Assembly (NCBI GenBank): GCA_013299105.1
Contig: JAAFJY010000036.1
Span: forward strand, 1-64,000
Reading direction: 5' to 3'
Source: Chitinophagales bacterium
Lineage (GTDB): Bacteria > Bacteroidota > Bacteroidia > Chitinophagales > Saprospiraceae
DNA: 64,000 nucleotides
Shown here one piece after another: positions 16,062 to 21,497 of this stretch (its first letter is position 1; the number at the start of each line of letters is the position of its first letter). The notes beneath the pieces are model-generated. The model was not told where the DNA came from, ran no database searches, and worked only from the letters and a program-made list of their open reading frames with translations. The position numbers were made by a program, and so were the translations under genes.

Positions 16062-16133
16062 TTTCTTGAGCATCTGGTTGCACGGTTTTGGATTTTTGAA
16101 ATATAAAATTTACAAACTACTGCCAGTAAAGAT

Positions 16134-16167
16134 AAAAAAGCCTGCCTCGACATTTGTCCAGGCAGGC
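16134..16167 (-). terminator. Terminator of the aromatic amino acid operon
   Basis: On the minus strand the 8-base stem GCCTGCCT (16167-16160) / AGGCAGGC (16147-16140) precedes TTTTTT (16139-16134). It lies about 200 bases after the stop of the DAHP synthase/chorismate mutase gene, the last gene of the operon. There is no T-run on the plus side, so it works only for the minus strand. Confidence 0.8.
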
Positions 16168-16324
16168 TTACGCAAAAAAAGTATGCGAGTTCAGGGCTGT
16201 GTATAGAGGTTCAAAAGAGGAAAAGGATTTGATTCAATCTGCCTTTTAGTCTTGAAACCGAAGTTACTTGACCGTTTAAGCATGTTGCAAAGCTAAATAC
16301 CCTAACCATTCGCACAAGTCCCCC

Positions 16325-16362: not shown

Positions 16363-17451
16363 TTACTCCCCGTGCATGATGCGGATCTGGTGGTTGATCG
16401 ACTCGTCGTGGATGGCTTTCAAAACTACGGTCACAAACTCCTCGCTAAGGCCTTTTTTGCTGCCAATTTCCACCGACTTGCCGAGGATTTCATTCCAGCG
16501 GGTGGTTTGCAAAACGGGCAAGTTATTGGCCTTTTTGTACTCGCCAATTTTCTCCGCGATTTTCATGCGGCGGCTGAGTAAATTGATCAATTCCTGGTCG
16601 ATCTCGTCAATGTCACCGCGCAAGTGGCTTATGCCTTCAACCGAAGAAGGGACCTCTGCATCAGCTGCCGGGAATGTCATGGACTTTATCATCGCCGTGT
16701 ACTGGGCTGGGGTGATTTGCTGAGCGGCGTCGCTCCAAGCCTTGTCAGGATCGGGGTGAACTTCGGTCATCAGGCCGTCAAAGTTGAGGTCCATCGCCTT
16801 CTGGGCCACATCCTGCAGGATGTCGCGGCGACCACAAATGTGGCTGTTGTCGCAAATGATCTCCAGGTCAGGGAAGTTGCGCTTCAGGTCGATGGCGATC
16901 TGCCAATGGGGTACGTTGCGGTACTTGGTATCGCCATGAAAAGAGAAGCCGCGGTGAATAGCTGCGATACGAGTGATCCCAGCTTTGTAGATACGCTCGA
17001 TGCCACCCATCCACAATTTTAGGTCTGGGTTGACCGGGTTTTTCACGATCACTGGGATGTCAACTCCTTTGAGGGCGTCGGCCACTTCCTGGATCGAAAA
17101 TGGGTTAACGGTGGTACGGGCACCGATCCACAGGATGTCAATGCCTGCTTTTAGGGCTTCAAAAACGTGGTCCTTGTTGCCCACCTCAGTGGTCACTTTC
17201 AGCCCTGTTTCTTGTTTCACGCGCTTCAACCAAGGCAAACCGATGGCCCCTACGCCTTCAAATTCTCCTGGTCGGGTACGGGGTTTCCAGATTCCAGCAC
17301 GGAATACGTCGATTTGTTTGGCATCCGCTAGTTCACGAGCGGTTTGCATTACTTGTTCTTCTGATTCAGCGCTGCATGGACCAGCAATCAGAATGGGTCT
17401 TTTGCCTTCGCGCTCCAGAATGGGTTTAAACGTCATGGACATGGCAGTCAA
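16363..17451 (-). CDS. Bifunctional DAHP synthase / chorismate mutase (type II)
   Basis: 362 residues. Residues 1 to about 265 are a KDO8P/DAHP-synthase-type TIM barrel with AGPCSAES (23-30), the GIWKPRTRP phosphate loop, IGARTTVNPFSIQ, KNPVNPDLKLWMGG and ICDNSHICGRR. Residues about 270-362 are an AroQ chorismate mutase (LRGDIDEIDQELINLLSRRM, KIGEYKK). The two halves catalyse the first shikimate step (PEP plus erythrose-4-phosphate) and chorismate to prephenate. This fusion is typical of Bacteroidota, where the mutase domain lets prephenate feed back on the synthase. It is the last gene of the pheA operon, 36 bases after tyrA, so it shares the Phe/Tyr leader control. Confidence 0.93.
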   Translation of the reverse strand: MTAMSMTFKPILEREGKRPILIAGPCSAESEEQVMQTARELADAKQIDVFRAGIWKPRTRPGEFEGVGAIGLPWLKRVKQETGLKVTTEVGNKDHVFEALKAGIDILWIGARTTVNPFSIQEVADALKGVDIPVIVKNPVNPDLKLWMGGIERIYKAGITRIAAIHRGFSFHGDTKYRNVPHWQIAIDLKRNFPDLEIICDNSHICGRRDILQDVAQKAMDLNFDGLMTEVHPDPDKAWSDAAQQITPAQYTAMIKSMTFPAADAEVPSSVEGISHLRGDIDEIDQELINLLSRRMKIAEKIGEYKKANNLPVLQTTRWNEILGKSVEIGSKKGLSEEFVTVVLKAIHDESINHQIRIMHGE

Positions 17452-17487: not shown

Positions 17488-18330
17488 TCAAGCGATTATT
17501 TTACGAATTTGATTGGCTTCTTCAATGAGCTGGTAAAAGGTCTCGAAGTCCTTCTTAATCAACAAGCTGCGAAACCTGGACAATTGGTTGATGTGCTCAT
17601 CCAAAACGTCCAGCACATTGTCGCGGTTTTGTCGAAATATGGGAACCCAAGTGTCAGGCGAACTCTTCGCCAGGCGCACTGTAGAGCCGAAACCCGAGGA
17701 GGCCAACTCAAAAATGCGCTCTTCGTCGTGCTCTTTGGCCAGTACCGTAAGGGCCAGTGCAAAAGAGCTGATGTGTGAGATGTGCGACACGTAAGCCGTG
17801 TGTACATCATGCGTTGCACCCTCAAAATGGGTGATTTTCATGGGGATCGACAAGTACATTTTTTCTACCAATTCCACTGCATCGGCGTCACTTGACTCTG
17901 GGTCACAAATGACTGTGTATTTGTGGTCGAACAGGTTGGGGATGGCCGCTTCTGGTCCCGAATACTCCGTTCCAGCCATTGGGTGAGTGGCCACAAAACG
18001 ATTGCGCTTGGGGTGATTTTTCACCGCTTCGAGCAAAGCACTTTTGGTCGAACCAACGTCAATCACTACTTGTTGATCGTTGATGAGGTGCAGCACCTGG
18101 GGGGCCACTTTGGTCAGGGCATCCACCGGAGTTGCGATGATGATCAAGTCCGACTGGTTAACGGCATTTTCCAGGGGCAGAATCTCGTCGGCTAAGCGGC
18201 GGTGCATGGCTTTGGCCGCGTTGTCCGCATTGGCTTCCACCCCGATGATTTTTTTAGCAAAACCATTTTCGCGCAATGAAATGGCCAAAGAGCCGCCAAT
18301 CAAACCCAAACCGATGATACTAATCGTCAT
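17488..18330 (-). CDS. tyrA: Prephenate dehydrogenase
   Basis: 280 residues. The N-terminal Rossmann fold has GLGLIGGSLA at 7-16 and an acidic residue at the end of the second strand (IIGVEANA), indicating NAD rather than NADP. The catalytic His sits in ATHPMAGTEYSGP. A helical C-terminal domain follows (TAYVSHISHISSFALALTVL, ASSGFGSTVRLAKSSPDTW). It oxidatively decarboxylates prephenate to 4-hydroxyphenylpyruvate for tyrosine. No ACT domain is present, so tyrosine feedback may act elsewhere or only through transcription. Starts three bases after the aminotransferase stop: same transcript. Confidence 0.93.
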   Translation of the reverse strand: MTISIIGLGLIGGSLAISLRENGFAKKIIGVEANADNAAKAMHRRLADEILPLENAVNQSDLIIIATPVDALTKVAPQVLHLINDQQVVIDVGSTKSALLEAVKNHPKRNRFVATHPMAGTEYSGPEAAIPNLFDHKYTVICDPESSDADAVELVEKMYLSIPMKITHFEGATHDVHTAYVSHISHISSFALALTVLAKEHDEERIFELASSGFGSTVRLAKSSPDTWVPIFRQNRDNVLDVLDEHINQLSRFRSLLIKKDFETFYQLIEEANQIRKIIA

Positions 18331-18333
18331 TTT

Positions 18334-19530
18334 TTAGGCATTTTGAGGTTTGAAAGGAGATTTAGCCTTGTAAGCCGCAACCCGTTCGCGAGCCTCACGA
18401 AAGGTAGCGACCTCGCTGCACAAGGAGATGCGCACGTAAGCATTGCCTTTGGAGCCGAAAATGCCACCTGGTGTGATGAACACGTCTGTTGCCTCCAAAA
18501 TCGCATCCGACAATTGGTAAGCATCTGCATAATAAGCCGGAATTTTGGCCCAAACGAACATGCCAACTTGATTGTGGTCGTAGCTACAATCCAGCAAGTC
18601 GAGCAGGCCATATACCTCGCGGCGGCGCTCGGCATAAATGCTGTTCAATTCATCGTACCAAGATTTAGGATTATTTAGTGCCTTTACTGCAGCCACTTGT
18701 AGGGGCTTGAACATGCCCGAATCTTGGTTGCTTTTGAAACGAATCACAGGCTCCAGGTAAGCCTTAGCTCCAGCCAGCATCCCCACGCGCCAGCCTGCCA
18801 TGTTGTGCGATTTGCTGAGCGAGTTCAACTCCAAGGCTACTTCCATCGCTCCAGGCTGGGCCAACAGGCTCTGGGGCCGCTCGTTGAGGATAAAAGCGTA
18901 GGGGTTGTCGTTGACGATCAGGATATTATTTTGCTTGGCAAAAGTGATTAGGTCTTTGAAAAAACCAGCATCGGCCTGCGCTCCGGTGGGCATATTGGGG
19001 TAGTTGACCCACATGAGTTTTACTTTACTCAGGTCGTTTTTGGCCCATTCATCCAAGTCGGGTTGCCAGTTGCGCTCGGCTTTCAACTCATATGATCTTA
19101 CCCCAGCACCTGTCAACAGAGTCACTGCGCTGTAGGCGGGATAACCTGGATTGGGAACCAGTACTTCGTCGCCGGCCTCTACATAACTCATCGAAACGTG
19201 CATGATGCCTTCCTTTGAGCCCATCAAGGGCAGGATTTCGTCATCTGGATGGAGCTGTACACCCAAATATTTCCAGTACCAATCGGCAAAAGCTCGCCTC
19301 AATTCTGGAATACCCTGGTAGCCTTGGTAAGCATGGGTGTCGGTCCGGCGCGAGGATTCAGACAAGGCGTCGATAGTACCCTGATTGGGTGGCAAGTCTG
19401 GGCTGCCGATCCCCAGGTTCAATACCTTGTGGCCTGCGGCACGCAATTGAGCAATTTGCCGCAGTTTCATCGAAAAATAGTATTCTTCAACATTTCCAAG
19501 CCTAGAGGCTGGTTGAATGATCGTTTGCAT
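18334..19530 (-). CDS. Class I/II PLP-dependent aminotransferase of the aromatic operon
   Basis: 398 residues from the ATG at 19530; a TTG-initiated extension at 19551 is rejected. Fold-type I features: NLGIGSPDLPPNQ at the N-terminus, NPGYPAYSAVT, WVNYPNMPTGAQA, IVNDNPYAFI, and the PLP lysine in SLSKSHNMAGWRVG. Resembles aspartate/aromatic and LL-diaminopimelate aminotransferases. Placed between pheA and tyrA, it most probably transaminates phenylpyruvate and hydroxyphenylpyruvate to Phe and Tyr, or prephenate to arogenate. Location is the main evidence for the substrate. It follows pheA by 24 bases. Confidence 0.85.
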   Translation of the reverse strand: MQTIIQPASRLGNVEEYYFSMKLRQIAQLRAAGHKVLNLGIGSPDLPPNQGTIDALSESSRRTDTHAYQGYQGIPELRRAFADWYWKYLGVQLHPDDEILPLMGSKEGIMHVSMSYVEAGDEVLVPNPGYPAYSAVTLLTGAGVRSYELKAERNWQPDLDEWAKNDLSKVKLMWVNYPNMPTGAQADAGFFKDLITFAKQNNILIVNDNPYAFILNERPQSLLAQPGAMEVALELNSLSKSHNMAGWRVGMLAGAKAYLEPVIRFKSNQDSGMFKPLQVAAVKALNNPKSWYDELNSIYAERRREVYGLLDLLDCSYDHNQVGMFVWAKIPAYYADAYQLSDAILEATDVFITPGGIFGSKGNAYVRISLCSEVATFREARERVAAYKAKSPFKPQNA

Positions 19531-19554
19531 AATCAATGGGTAACTCGTCAAAAT

Positions 19555-20442
19555 TTAATCCACCATCAAACCCTGGCGGTAAGCACCCAGGAGTTTCAGG
19601 TCGTGGGTAATGGGCCGAATGGCCTCAAAAGCTTGTTCACAAGGCACGTTGCCTTCGGCCACATAATCCACAAAAAGGCGGTATTCCCAAGGACGGCCAA
19701 TGATGGGGGCCGATTGGATTTTGGTCATGTTGAAATTGTAGGCCGACAAAATGGCCAAAACCTTGTGCAAACTTCCAGGAGCGTGGTCCACATCAAAGCT
19801 GATCGAATACTTGTCAGGCTTGGGCACCGCGATTGCTTTTTCGGTAGGCTGAATCACCAAAAAACGGGTATAGTTTTTCTTGTTGGTTTCAATCCCTTTT
19901 GCCAACAAGGGCAATTTATACATCTCAGCAGCCAAGGTGCTGGCAATGGCACCGATATGTTTCAGCCCCAATTCTTGGATTTTTTTAGCAGCCAGCGCAG
20001 TATCCTCGGTTTGCACCAATCGGATATGCGGGTAGGCCCGGAAAAAATCCAGGCACTGTTCAATGGCGATCGGGTGAGAGTGCACCTCGTGCAAGTCTTC
20101 GATGCCCTGATCAGGCAGGGCCATGAGGTTTTGTTTGACCCTCAGGTAAACTTCACCTACAATTTGCACCGGGTATTCGTCCAGCAAGCGGTAGTTGCCC
20201 ATCAAGCTGCCCGCGAGGGTATTTTCGATGGCCATCAGCGCTACATCCATCACTTTTCCTTCGACCAATTGTTGGATCATGGTCTCAAAAGTCAAAGCTG
20301 GAACAATGTGGAGTTTTCTGTCCTGGAAACACTGACGGGCCGCAATTTCATGAAAGGCCCCCGGATAACCCTGAATACCAATGCGCAGGGCTTTCTGGGT
20401 TTGCCCACTATCCGATGCTGTATCGCTCATTAAAGCTTGCAT
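19555..20442 (-). CDS. pheA: Prephenate dehydratase
   Basis: 295 residues. A PBP-like catalytic domain (about 18-200) has IGIQGYPGAFHEIAA, ALMAIENTLAGSL, and NYTRFLVIQP with the catalytic Thr of the TRF motif. An ACT domain follows (about 210-285: SISFDVDHAPGSLHKVLAIL, ESRP-like segment AEGNVPCEQ). It converts prephenate to phenylpyruvate and is normally inhibited by phenylalanine bound to the ACT domain. No chorismate mutase domain is present; that activity is in the last gene of the operon. First structural gene after the Phe/Tyr leader; the ATG at 20442 is about 165 bases after the terminator stem. Confidence 0.93.
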   Translation of the reverse strand: MQALMSDTASDSGQTQKALRIGIQGYPGAFHEIAARQCFQDRKLHIVPALTFETMIQQLVEGKVMDVALMAIENTLAGSLMGNYRLLDEYPVQIVGEVYLRVKQNLMALPDQGIEDLHEVHSHPIAIEQCLDFFRAYPHIRLVQTEDTALAAKKIQELGLKHIGAIASTLAAEMYKLPLLAKGIETNKKNYTRFLVIQPTEKAIAVPKPDKYSISFDVDHAPGSLHKVLAILSAYNFNMTKIQSAPIIGRPWEYRLFVDYVAEGNVPCEQAFEAIRPITHDLKLLGAYRQGLMVD

Positions 20443-20608
20443 GCTTGCTGTAGTTTTTGTTCTTCACATTAAATACATACCCTCTTCGCCCCTGACAAGT
20501 GGGTGAAAATGAGGTTTCCCGAAAAGATTTAGCCTTGTTTAGTGGCTAAACCCTTTGCCGCAGACTTGGATAATTTGGTTAGGCAAAAAAGTGCAGAAAA
20601 GTTGGGGC

Positions 20609-20634
20609 AAAAAAAAAGTCCCGCGTGGCGGGAC
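20609..20634 (-). terminator. Attenuator terminator of the pheA operon leader
   Basis: On the minus strand GTCCCGC (20634-20628), a three-base loop, GCGGGAC (20624-20618), then nine T (20617-20609). A strong intrinsic terminator sitting between the leader peptide and pheA. The upstream segment GGGAC (20687-20683), just after the leader stop codon, can pair with GTCCC of the 5' arm and would then prevent the terminator from forming. Confidence 0.85.
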
Positions 20635-20688
20635 CCTTTATTTTTGACATCTTCAGTTGTTCTGAAAACCTAAAATGATAGAGTCCCT

Positions 20689-20748
20689 TTACGATTGACC
20701 GTAAAAGTAAAAGCTACCAAAATAGAAAAACGAACGATTAAAAGACAT
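20689..20748 (-). CDS. Phe/Tyr-rich leader peptide of the pheA operon
   Basis: A 19-residue frame from ATG (20748) to TAA (20689): MSFNRSFFYFGSFYFYGQS. Six of the 19 residues are Phe and three are Tyr, and nine of the fourteen residues from position 3 to 16 are aromatic. It begins 15 bases after the predicted transcription start and is followed by an intrinsic terminator and then by genes for Phe and Tyr synthesis. This is exactly the layout of a ribosome-stalling attenuator: with scarce charged tRNA-Phe or tRNA-Tyr the ribosome stalls, an antiterminator forms and pheA is transcribed. The peptide is too short for ordinary gene finding. The control is inferred, not shown. Confidence 0.85.
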   Translation of the reverse strand: MSFNRSFFYFGSFYFYGQS

Positions 20749-20769
20749 AACGTTTCTGTTGTGTTGATG

Positions 20770-20800
20770 CAAACGTAGGCAATTGCGCATTGAAATGCAA
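20770..20800 (-). promoter_or_regulatory. Promoter of the pheA operon
   Basis: On the minus strand TTG (20800-20798), 20 bases, then TACGTTTG (20777-20770), an exact match to the Bacteroidota -33/-7 pattern. Transcription should start near 20763, giving a leader RNA of about 320 nt before pheA that includes the Phe/Tyr peptide and the attenuator. Confidence 0.75.
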
Positions 20801-20864: not shown

Positions 20865-21497
20865 TTATTTGCTCATGGCCTCAACCAACTCAATCACTCC
20901 GCCAATCATCATTTGCACGCCAATGGACATGACGATGAAGCCCATGATGCGCGACAGGGCTTTCAAGCCCGCCTCGCCCAAAATGCGGTAAACCAAGGGT
21001 GCCGAACGCAAAATCAGGTAAACGATGATCCCCAAAACCACCACCACGCCGCTGATGGCCAGCCGCGCTTCCCATGTAGGGTGCTCGTTGTATTGCGAGA
21101 TCAAATACGAAATCGAACCCGGTCCTGACAACAAAGGCATGGCCAGTGGGGCAAAGGAGATGTCCTGCTTTTGCCGGGCCTCCTCTTCCACTTCCTGATT
21201 CACCGAGCGGTTTTCGGCGAATTTTCCGCTGATCAGGCCGTAACCAGAGCTCAATACCATCATGCCGCCTGCAATGCGCATGGCGTCGATGTTGATGCCA
21301 AAAAACTTGAGGATCAAAGCGCCACCAAAAAAGAAAACCAACAAAATGAGGGTGAAATAGATGCCCGTGTTGCGGGCGGTCTGGCGGCGCTCTGGCTCAG
21401 TGTATTCCGGGGTCATGGCCAAGAAAACGGGAACCGCGCCAAGCGGATTGACCACCGAAAACAAAGCTACCAATGCCGAAAAGCATAACTCGATCAT
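20865..21497 (-). CDS. MarC family membrane protein
   Basis: 210 residues with six predicted membrane helices. The family motif near the N-terminus is ALFSVVNPLGAVPVFLAMTP, and the second half has PLAMPLLSGPGSISYLI, the usual inverted-repeat counterpart (P(L)xxGPG). MarC/UPF0056 proteins are inner-membrane proteins of unknown transport role; the old link to multiple antibiotic resistance has been withdrawn. The gene stands alone between the pheA promoter and a DegT-type gene. A charged loop (residues about 98-115) separates helices 3 and 4. Confidence 0.9.
   Translation of the reverse strand: MIELCFSALVALFSVVNPLGAVPVFLAMTPEYTEPERRQTARNTGIYFTLILLVFFFGGALILKFFGINIDAMRIAGGMMVLSSGYGLISGKFAENRSVNQEVEEEARQKQDISFAPLAMPLLSGPGSISYLISQYNEHPTWEARLAISGVVVVLGIIVYLILRSAPLVYRILGEAGLKALSRIMGFIVMSIGVQMMIGGVIELVEAMSK

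Follow-up and report, generated by a model that had tools for sequence, protein, structure and literature searches.

The window analysed here, a 64,000-nt stretch of DNA from a genome of 7.67 Mb that belongs to the Saprospiraceae, includes a four-gene operon on its minus strand (Table 1). The initial annotation had described these genes as making Phe and Tyr, and the gene names hold when compared with Pfam. The operon comprises, in addition to pheA, an aminotransferase gene and tyrA, a gene encoding DAHP synthase, the first shikimate step. Searches with tblastn recover the four genes, identically arranged, from other loci of Saprospiraceae and from several further groups. Many loci of Bacteroidales deviate: either tyrA or the aminotransferase gene was not found in the DNA examined, or the gene order is different.

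Table 1. Operon genes, leader elements and predicted RNA segments at the pheA locus of the window
Feature	Position	Strand	Basis or detail
DAHP synthase-chorismate mutase fusion	16363..17451	-	PF00793, PF01817
Prephenate dehydrogenase (tyrA)	17488..18330	-	PF02153, PF20463
Aminotransferase class I/II	18334..19551	-	PF00155
pheA, prephenate dehydratase with ACT domain	19555..20442	-	PF00800, PF01842
Weak hairpin GGGUUUAGCC...GGCUAAAUCU with short U tract	20525..20553	-	Fold, -11.6 kcal/mol; place of the second attenuator in relatives
Predicted intrinsic terminator GUCCCGC-CAC-GCGGGAC plus nine U (segments 3:4)	20609..20634	-	Hairpin 20634-20618, nine T 20617-20609
Segment 3, AGGGUCCC, predicted 3' strand of the antiterminator	20630..20637	-	Overlaps 5' arm of the terminator, 20634-20628
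Segment 2, 3' strand of the predicted 1:2 hairpin	20676..20693	-	Fold and duplex
GGGACUCU in segment 2, predicted 5' strand of the antiterminator	20687-20680	-	Duplex
Segment 1, 5' strand of the predicted 1:2 hairpin (codons SFYFYG and preceding bases)	20700..20719	-	Fold; covariation
Leader peptide MSFNRSFFYFGSFYFYGQS with stop	20689..20748	-	ATG 20748, stop TAA 20691-20689
Promoter TTG-N20-TACGTTTG	20770..20800	-	TTG 20800-20798, 20-nt spacer, TACGTTTG 20777-20770

Upstream of pheA, the initial annotation had listed a promoter, a 19-codon frame, a strand able to act as antiterminator behind its stop, and a terminator followed by nine T, and all of them are present on the minus strand. The promoter is of the Bacteroidota -33/-7 type. 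Translation of the window gives a leader peptide with six Phe and three Tyr among its 19 codons. Codons F13, Y14, F15 and Y16 start at 20712, 20709, 20706 and 20703, the stop codon at 20691, and AGGGACTC adjoins the stop directly on its 3' side. The terminator stem, of 7 pairs, is located between the leader and the first gene of the operon. Folding of nucleotides 20755-20595 yields -42.3 kcal/mol (z -4.28), and none of 200 shuffled sequences folds equally low.

When both strands of the 64-kb window were scanned, 16 matches to the promoter pattern were obtained. Three of them precede a short frame with an ATG start and a T-tract hairpin, and the pheA leader is the only one of these three sets that encodes an amino-acid-biased peptide. 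The region upstream of ilvD gave no match in this window-wide scan for promoter, frame and hairpin. Past the last gene of the operon, at 16130-16317 on the minus strand, there is a promoter pattern with a 30-codon frame (MLKRSSNFGFK...) and a strong T-tract hairpin (-24.1 kcal/mol); amino-acid bias was looked for in this frame and none was found, and the hairpin is perhaps the operon's own terminator.

Conservation of the Phe/Tyr codons and of the terminator in relatives had been proposed as a test in the initial annotation. We assembled 120 genomes of the family, 81 of which had a dehydratase match, and read the DNA upstream of 79, two partial matches being left out. A locus was scored when it had a frame 14-30 codons long in which five or more codons, and no less than 28%, were for Phe or Tyr, followed by a terminator 17-55 nt further on. 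Such a leader with terminator precedes the dehydratase gene at 68 of the 79 loci, compared with 0-4 of 79 loci when the 500 upstream bases were dinucleotide-shuffled in 20 rounds. All five genomes from the genus of the window, which is very probably Haliscomenobacter, have the leader. Among the 11 loci at which no leader was detected, two had less than 120 nt of upstream DNA and two carry a stop inside the gene.

The promoter pattern (TTG-N17-22-TAnnTTTG, searched up to 130 nt upstream of the first leader) precedes the first leader at 51 of the 68 loci, with a shuffled null of 0.6%. These include 26 of the 30 loci scored as tandem, i.e., with two leader-terminator modules in series, and 25 of the 38 scored as single. 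At locus L008, a match to the pattern was also seen between leader 1 and terminator 1. These data bear on the reading that the hairpin is merely the terminator of an upstream marC-like gene and the short frame a T-rich by-product. A MarC-family gene, as identified with Pfam, does end at 20865, upstream of the leader and on the same strand, and T-rich stretches yield Phe codons. However, a promoter pattern is situated between this gene and the hairpin, leader and terminator recur at a frequency that shuffled sequences do not approach, and the antiterminator covaries (see below), so that we regard this reading as very improbable.

A second set consisted of the best 80 of at least 582 relatives with named genomes; it leans to close dehydratases, and six of its loci come from genomes also present in the family set. 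The rule was in this case at least five Phe or Tyr codons, 25% and 12 codons, plus a terminator. Leader and terminator were found at 75 of these best 80 loci, including those of Bacteroides, Phocaeicola, Parabacteroides, Alistipes, Chitinophaga, Hymenobacter, Portibacter, Neolewinella and Phaeodactylibacter; two loci titled Flavobacteriaceae (L199 and L225) also have Phe/Tyr leaders. Control windows of 600 bases taken elsewhere in the named loci, on both strands and with coding DNA included, scored in 19 of 1881 cases, and none with two. The five loci without a leader are L167, with 72 nt of upstream DNA, L173, L210 and L226, at which the neighbourhood of the dehydratase gene yielded none of the other operon genes, and L207, at which the operon is present. 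L180 resembles L173, L210 and L226 in that no further gene of the operon was detected nearby, and the leader is present there. The Phe/Tyr codons and the terminator are hence kept in both sets of relatives, as the proposed test had called for.

Both Phe and Tyr codons occur in every one of the 99 leader candidates with a terminator, a number that includes two TTG frames (the second of L022 and the third of L036) which we rejected by hand as modules, as they overlap a hairpin or another leader. Compared by frame, the share of Phe/Tyr codons is 0.62 versus 0.22 and 0.27, a difference that is partly built in, the frames having been chosen for Phe and Tyr.

With respect to the range of the leader in the phylum, a dehydratase was found in 215 of 247 sampled genomes, and 70 loci were examined, 30 of them being the best-scoring. 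In this sample, leader and terminator were present at 2 of 2 loci of family f2, 2 of 2 of f3 and 11 of 11 of f5 (seven of these from one genus). No leader with terminator was found among the three loci of f4 or the three of f8, each representing one genus, and outside the class one of 49 loci had both. Judged from these sequences, the putative Phe/Tyr attenuator characterizes a large part of the class, and not the phylum. A model built from first modules only (R1) gave a single match at E<=1 in the whole genome of the window, the pheA leader. When run on 61 genomes, some of which supplied the model, it gave 38 matches at E<=0.002, all of them just before a dehydratase gene when their places were compared by eye. 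Weak matches (E 0.005-0.023) were also obtained on contigs other than those of pheA, namely G058:C28:17599-17689, G052:C107:11324-11412, G034:C70, and G053:C170 and C19; these are likely T-rich terminators, and less probably further Phe/Tyr leaders.

Three alternative helices are predicted for the leader RNA, the antiterminator (2:3) and the 1:2 hairpin being mutually exclusive. The predicted 1:2 hairpin spans 20719 to 20676, with the FYFY codons and the stop inside, and GGGACUCU pairs with AGGGUCCC (helix 2:3) in the window through eight pairs at -14.7 kcal/mol (shuffle p 0.02). For the analysis of covariation we aligned, by sequence alone, 28 of 67 first modules, mostly the closer ones, and picked the helix columns from L001 and L002. 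Changes on both sides were found in 6 of 7 tested pairs of helix 1:2 and in 7 of 8 pairs of helix 3:4. For these two helices together, 86.1% of the cells are paired, 13 of 15 pairs have both-side changes (reached by 0 of 500 shuffles), and 53 cells are changed on both sides compared with 18.1 after shuffling, a value reached by 0 of 500 shuffles; these shuffle counts, and those that follow, do not represent probabilities, the sequences being related. In helix 2:3, 89.9% of the cells are paired, 5 of 6 pairs have changed on both sides (a level reached by 10 of 500 shuffles), and 16 cells are changed on both sides versus 4.0 after shuffling (0 of 500). Further pair types in helix 2:3 showed no excess, 374 of 500 shuffles reaching the observed number. 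The outer 1:2 pairs of the window itself mostly fail in the fixed columns; its fold uses a register one base off. Compensatory changes in the aligned modules support the three predicted alternative helices (1:2, 2:3 and 3:4).

Considering all 99 modules, the cognate 2:3 duplex has a mean of -11.28 kcal/mol versus -8.28 kcal/mol for swapped strands. Antiterminator pairing at shuffle p<=0.05 was obtained for only 66 of 99 modules when the search for segment 2 began at the last Phe/Tyr codon. An earlier search, covering bases from the stop codon onward, had given 63 of 99 with p<0.05, and it was restarted at the last Phe/Tyr codon, since the reading frame of some leaders extends through segment 2. 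At least half of segment 2 is paired with coding bases in the fold of 81 of the 99 modules.

In the same 66 modules, the distance between the first base of the last core Phe/Tyr codon and the start of segment 2 is 15.0 +/- 2.7 nt, a closeness that is partly built in, as the search started just past that codon, whereas the position of segment 2 relative to the stop is 0.3 +/- 6.2 nt; duplexes with shuffled bases in all 99 modules gave a distance of 20.9 +/- 11.9 nt. In the window the distance from Y16 is 16 nt. A ribosome with a codon in its A site extends about 12-13 nt downstream, so that at a distance of about 15 nt segment 2 would be just free. This fairly steady distance of 15 nt between the last Phe/Tyr codon and the antiterminator may report the leading edge of the ribosome in organisms that make little use of Shine-Dalgarno pairing.

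Taking into account the conservation and the covariation of the three helices, which support the ribosome-stalling architecture proposed in the initial annotation, and the spacing, which fits it, we consider that the pheA operon carries a ribosome-mediated transcription attenuator reading charged tRNA-Phe and tRNA-Tyr, a reading to which we assign a probability of roughly 0.9. The transcript would begin shortly upstream of the leader frame, which a ribosome would translate. When Phe- or Tyr-tRNA is scarce, the ribosome would halt on the FYFY codons 13-16, covering segment 1 and leaving segment 2 free to pair with segment 3, and the terminator would be blocked and the four-gene operon read. When both are plentiful, the ribosome would either cover segment 2 at the stop codon or depart and let helix 1:2 form, and in both cases segments 3 and 4 would form the terminator. 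From the frame, promoter pattern, terminator, three alternative helices, spacing and tandem copies that the comparison shows, we infer translation, stalling, termination, a response to both amino acids and, for tandem modules, multiplicative gating. Such a device would probably restrict synthesis of the two amino acids to times of shortage, and the locus would provide a concrete, testable Phe/Tyr sensor for Bacteroidia.

The ribosome might alternatively be stalled by an arrest peptide, i.e., by the leader's own sequence upon binding of free Phe or Tyr, and not by empty tRNAs. The TnaC peptide stalls the ribosome with Trp in this manner. The peptide end is rather constant in close relatives (SFYFYGQP), for which helix 1:2 nevertheless accounts in part, and Pro is common before the stop: it directly precedes it in 12 of 30 first, 16 of 30 second and 9 of 38 single leaders. 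In the window leader (last codon and stop, 20689-20694) this residue is Ser. Against an arrest peptide, the 80 named loci keep only the richness in Phe and Tyr and neither residues nor order, and the distance of segment 2 is steadier from the last Phe/Tyr codon than from the stop; we therefore hold this mechanism to be improbable. Termination is slow at a Pro-stop, and under the attenuation model a pause there could prolong the coverage of segment 2 by the ribosome and make the terminator more effective. A riboswitch or T-box responding to Phe or Tyr, with no need for translation, would likewise display a structured leader with a terminator. Nonetheless, no Rfam family reaches its gathering score in the leader region, the covarying helices are those around the frame, and a Phe/Tyr frame with its own start and stop is conserved, which leaves such an element with very little probability.

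The initial annotation had envisaged a single leader; this picture has to be amended, since by sequence many relatives carry two predicted attenuators in series. Two complete leader-terminator modules are found at 31 of the 79 family loci, a count that corresponds to 30 obtained by rule, one removed (L022) and two added by hand (L012 and L044). The second leaders of the latter two lie just under the family cut for Phe/Tyr and pass the looser cut of the named set, in which they appear as L150 and L159. L022 was kept among the 30 tandem loci in the promoter and Pro-stop counts given above. In the named set (best 80 of at least 582), nine of the 80 loci are tandem, two of them being the genomes of L012 and L044; they include Phaeodactylibacter xiamenensis, Chitinophaga sp. 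CF418, Hymenobacter mucosus and two Bacteroidales bins. A GTG frame at L178 was left out of the count of second leaders. Second leaders start with a codon of their own, ATG except at L048, mostly 74-113 nt past the first stop. Model R1 gave two matches at E<=0.002 in 10 of the 61 genomes, the second one lying at the place of the second module. The 30 tandem loci tested lack a match to the promoter pattern in the interval from terminator 1 to leader 2, and both modules are probably on one transcript. RNA polymerase would then have to pass two gates, and the simplest expectation is that read-through multiplies.

Alignment scores were used to compare the modules. In 27 of 28 cases a first module is closer to its counterpart in another genome than to the second module of the same genome, and second modules are likewise closer to another genome's second in 23 of 28. 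Similarity of modules within a genome (13.5) exceeds that of second to second modules between genomes (8.3). An old duplication with some later copying is a possible origin of this pattern. On a quick dehydratase tree of 109 rows, in which 36 of 106 inner branches are poorly supported, the tandem label requires 13 changes versus a shuffled mean of 24.3, a count of 5 being forced by the starred branches alone.

A single branch without tandem (support 99) unites the five Haliscomenobacter genomes, and it is nested within a nine-row group that includes three tandems (support 84). Between leader and gene, the minus strand of the window contains no second Phe/Tyr frame, and R1 gives at most 2.4 bits there; the weak hairpin at 20525..20553 occupies the place of the second attenuator. 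A plus-strand R1 match of 22 bits in the same interval was discarded as a mirror of the terminator. In four of the five Haliscomenobacter genomes (L002, L230, L231 and L232), several 20-base palindromes such as CCCACGGATTCATCCGTGGG are found at the second-module place, between terminator and gene. Resembling REP elements, they may have taken the place of a second attenuator. Going by its position on the tree, the window's genus probably lost the second module.

We think it likely that much of Bacteroidia uses a Phe/Tyr attenuator which has repeatedly become two same-signal gates in series on one transcript, read-through being their product, with a lower leak and a steeper response, and that gains and losses can be traced within families, the window's genus representing a loss. 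The tandem form would offer a natural experiment in which one-gate and two-gate relatives are compared with regard to why same-signal attenuators should stand in series.

The enterobacterial pheA leader works by the logic of ribosome position. It shares with the window leader a Phe-rich leader peptide and a terminator ahead of pheA. Its Rfam model (RF01859, Phe_leader) scores 22.0 bits against the window leader (E 0.27), a weak similarity well below the gathering score of 55. Unlike RF01859, the window leader has Phe and Tyr, a Bacteroidota-type promoter and a four-gene operon that includes tyrA and DAHP synthase. A comparative study by Vitreschak et al. from 2004 reportedly predicted classical attenuation at amino-acid operons, also in Bacteroidetes/Chlorobi, and may overlap with the class-level part of our result.

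The initial annotation had called this architecture best known from proteobacteria, and was not aware of a named Phe/Tyr version in this group. None was found in the accessible portions of the literature searched, but a precedent for attenuation as such does exist in the phylum. In Flavobacterium psychrophilum, a structured 5' element conserved in Flavobacteriaceae is located upstream of pheA, and amino-acid operons give strong clues for leader-peptide attenuation (PMC9723704). Phylum and gene are the same as here; the main text of that report, in its available part, names no Phe/Tyr codons, antiterminator or tandem. For Bacteroides thetaiotaomicron, frames "reminiscent of leader peptides" have been mentioned (PMC7366714). 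In the accessible portions of the literature searched, leader-peptide attenuation in Bacteroidia received only brief mentions.

Two short frames in one leader, mgtM and mgtP, each control transcription of Salmonella mgtCBR, which has been called a singular example of tandem attenuators whose signals differ, these being ATP and proline (PMC3641672). In contrast, both modules have here Phe and Tyr codons and each its own predicted terminator, as two like gates. Two leader peptides also precede ermB, in that case for translational attenuation induced by antibiotic and not for a transcriptional response to amino-acid supply (PMC8274638). In Acholeplasma, the short frame uORFC-13-1 upstream of aroF, with at least one Phe codon and a terminator, has been proposed to act by attenuation, with 24 examples (PMC8632094). 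It likewise stands before a DAHP synthase gene, but in another phylum, and the available portion of that source mentions neither Tyr nor tandem. Within the extent of the sources available, the literature searched for precedent contained no Phe/Tyr leader in the phylum and no same-signal tandem transcription attenuators; on that basis leader-peptide attenuation and the conserved Flavobacteriaceae pheA element are already published, and the same-signal tandem is new.

Trp codons are also present in some leaders (L006, L010, L013, L044 and others; e.g., MPNQTKRFWDFYWFYFYGTP). Over all leaders Trp accounts for 1.1-1.7%, and in a few cases the attenuator may sense Phe, Tyr and Trp alike.
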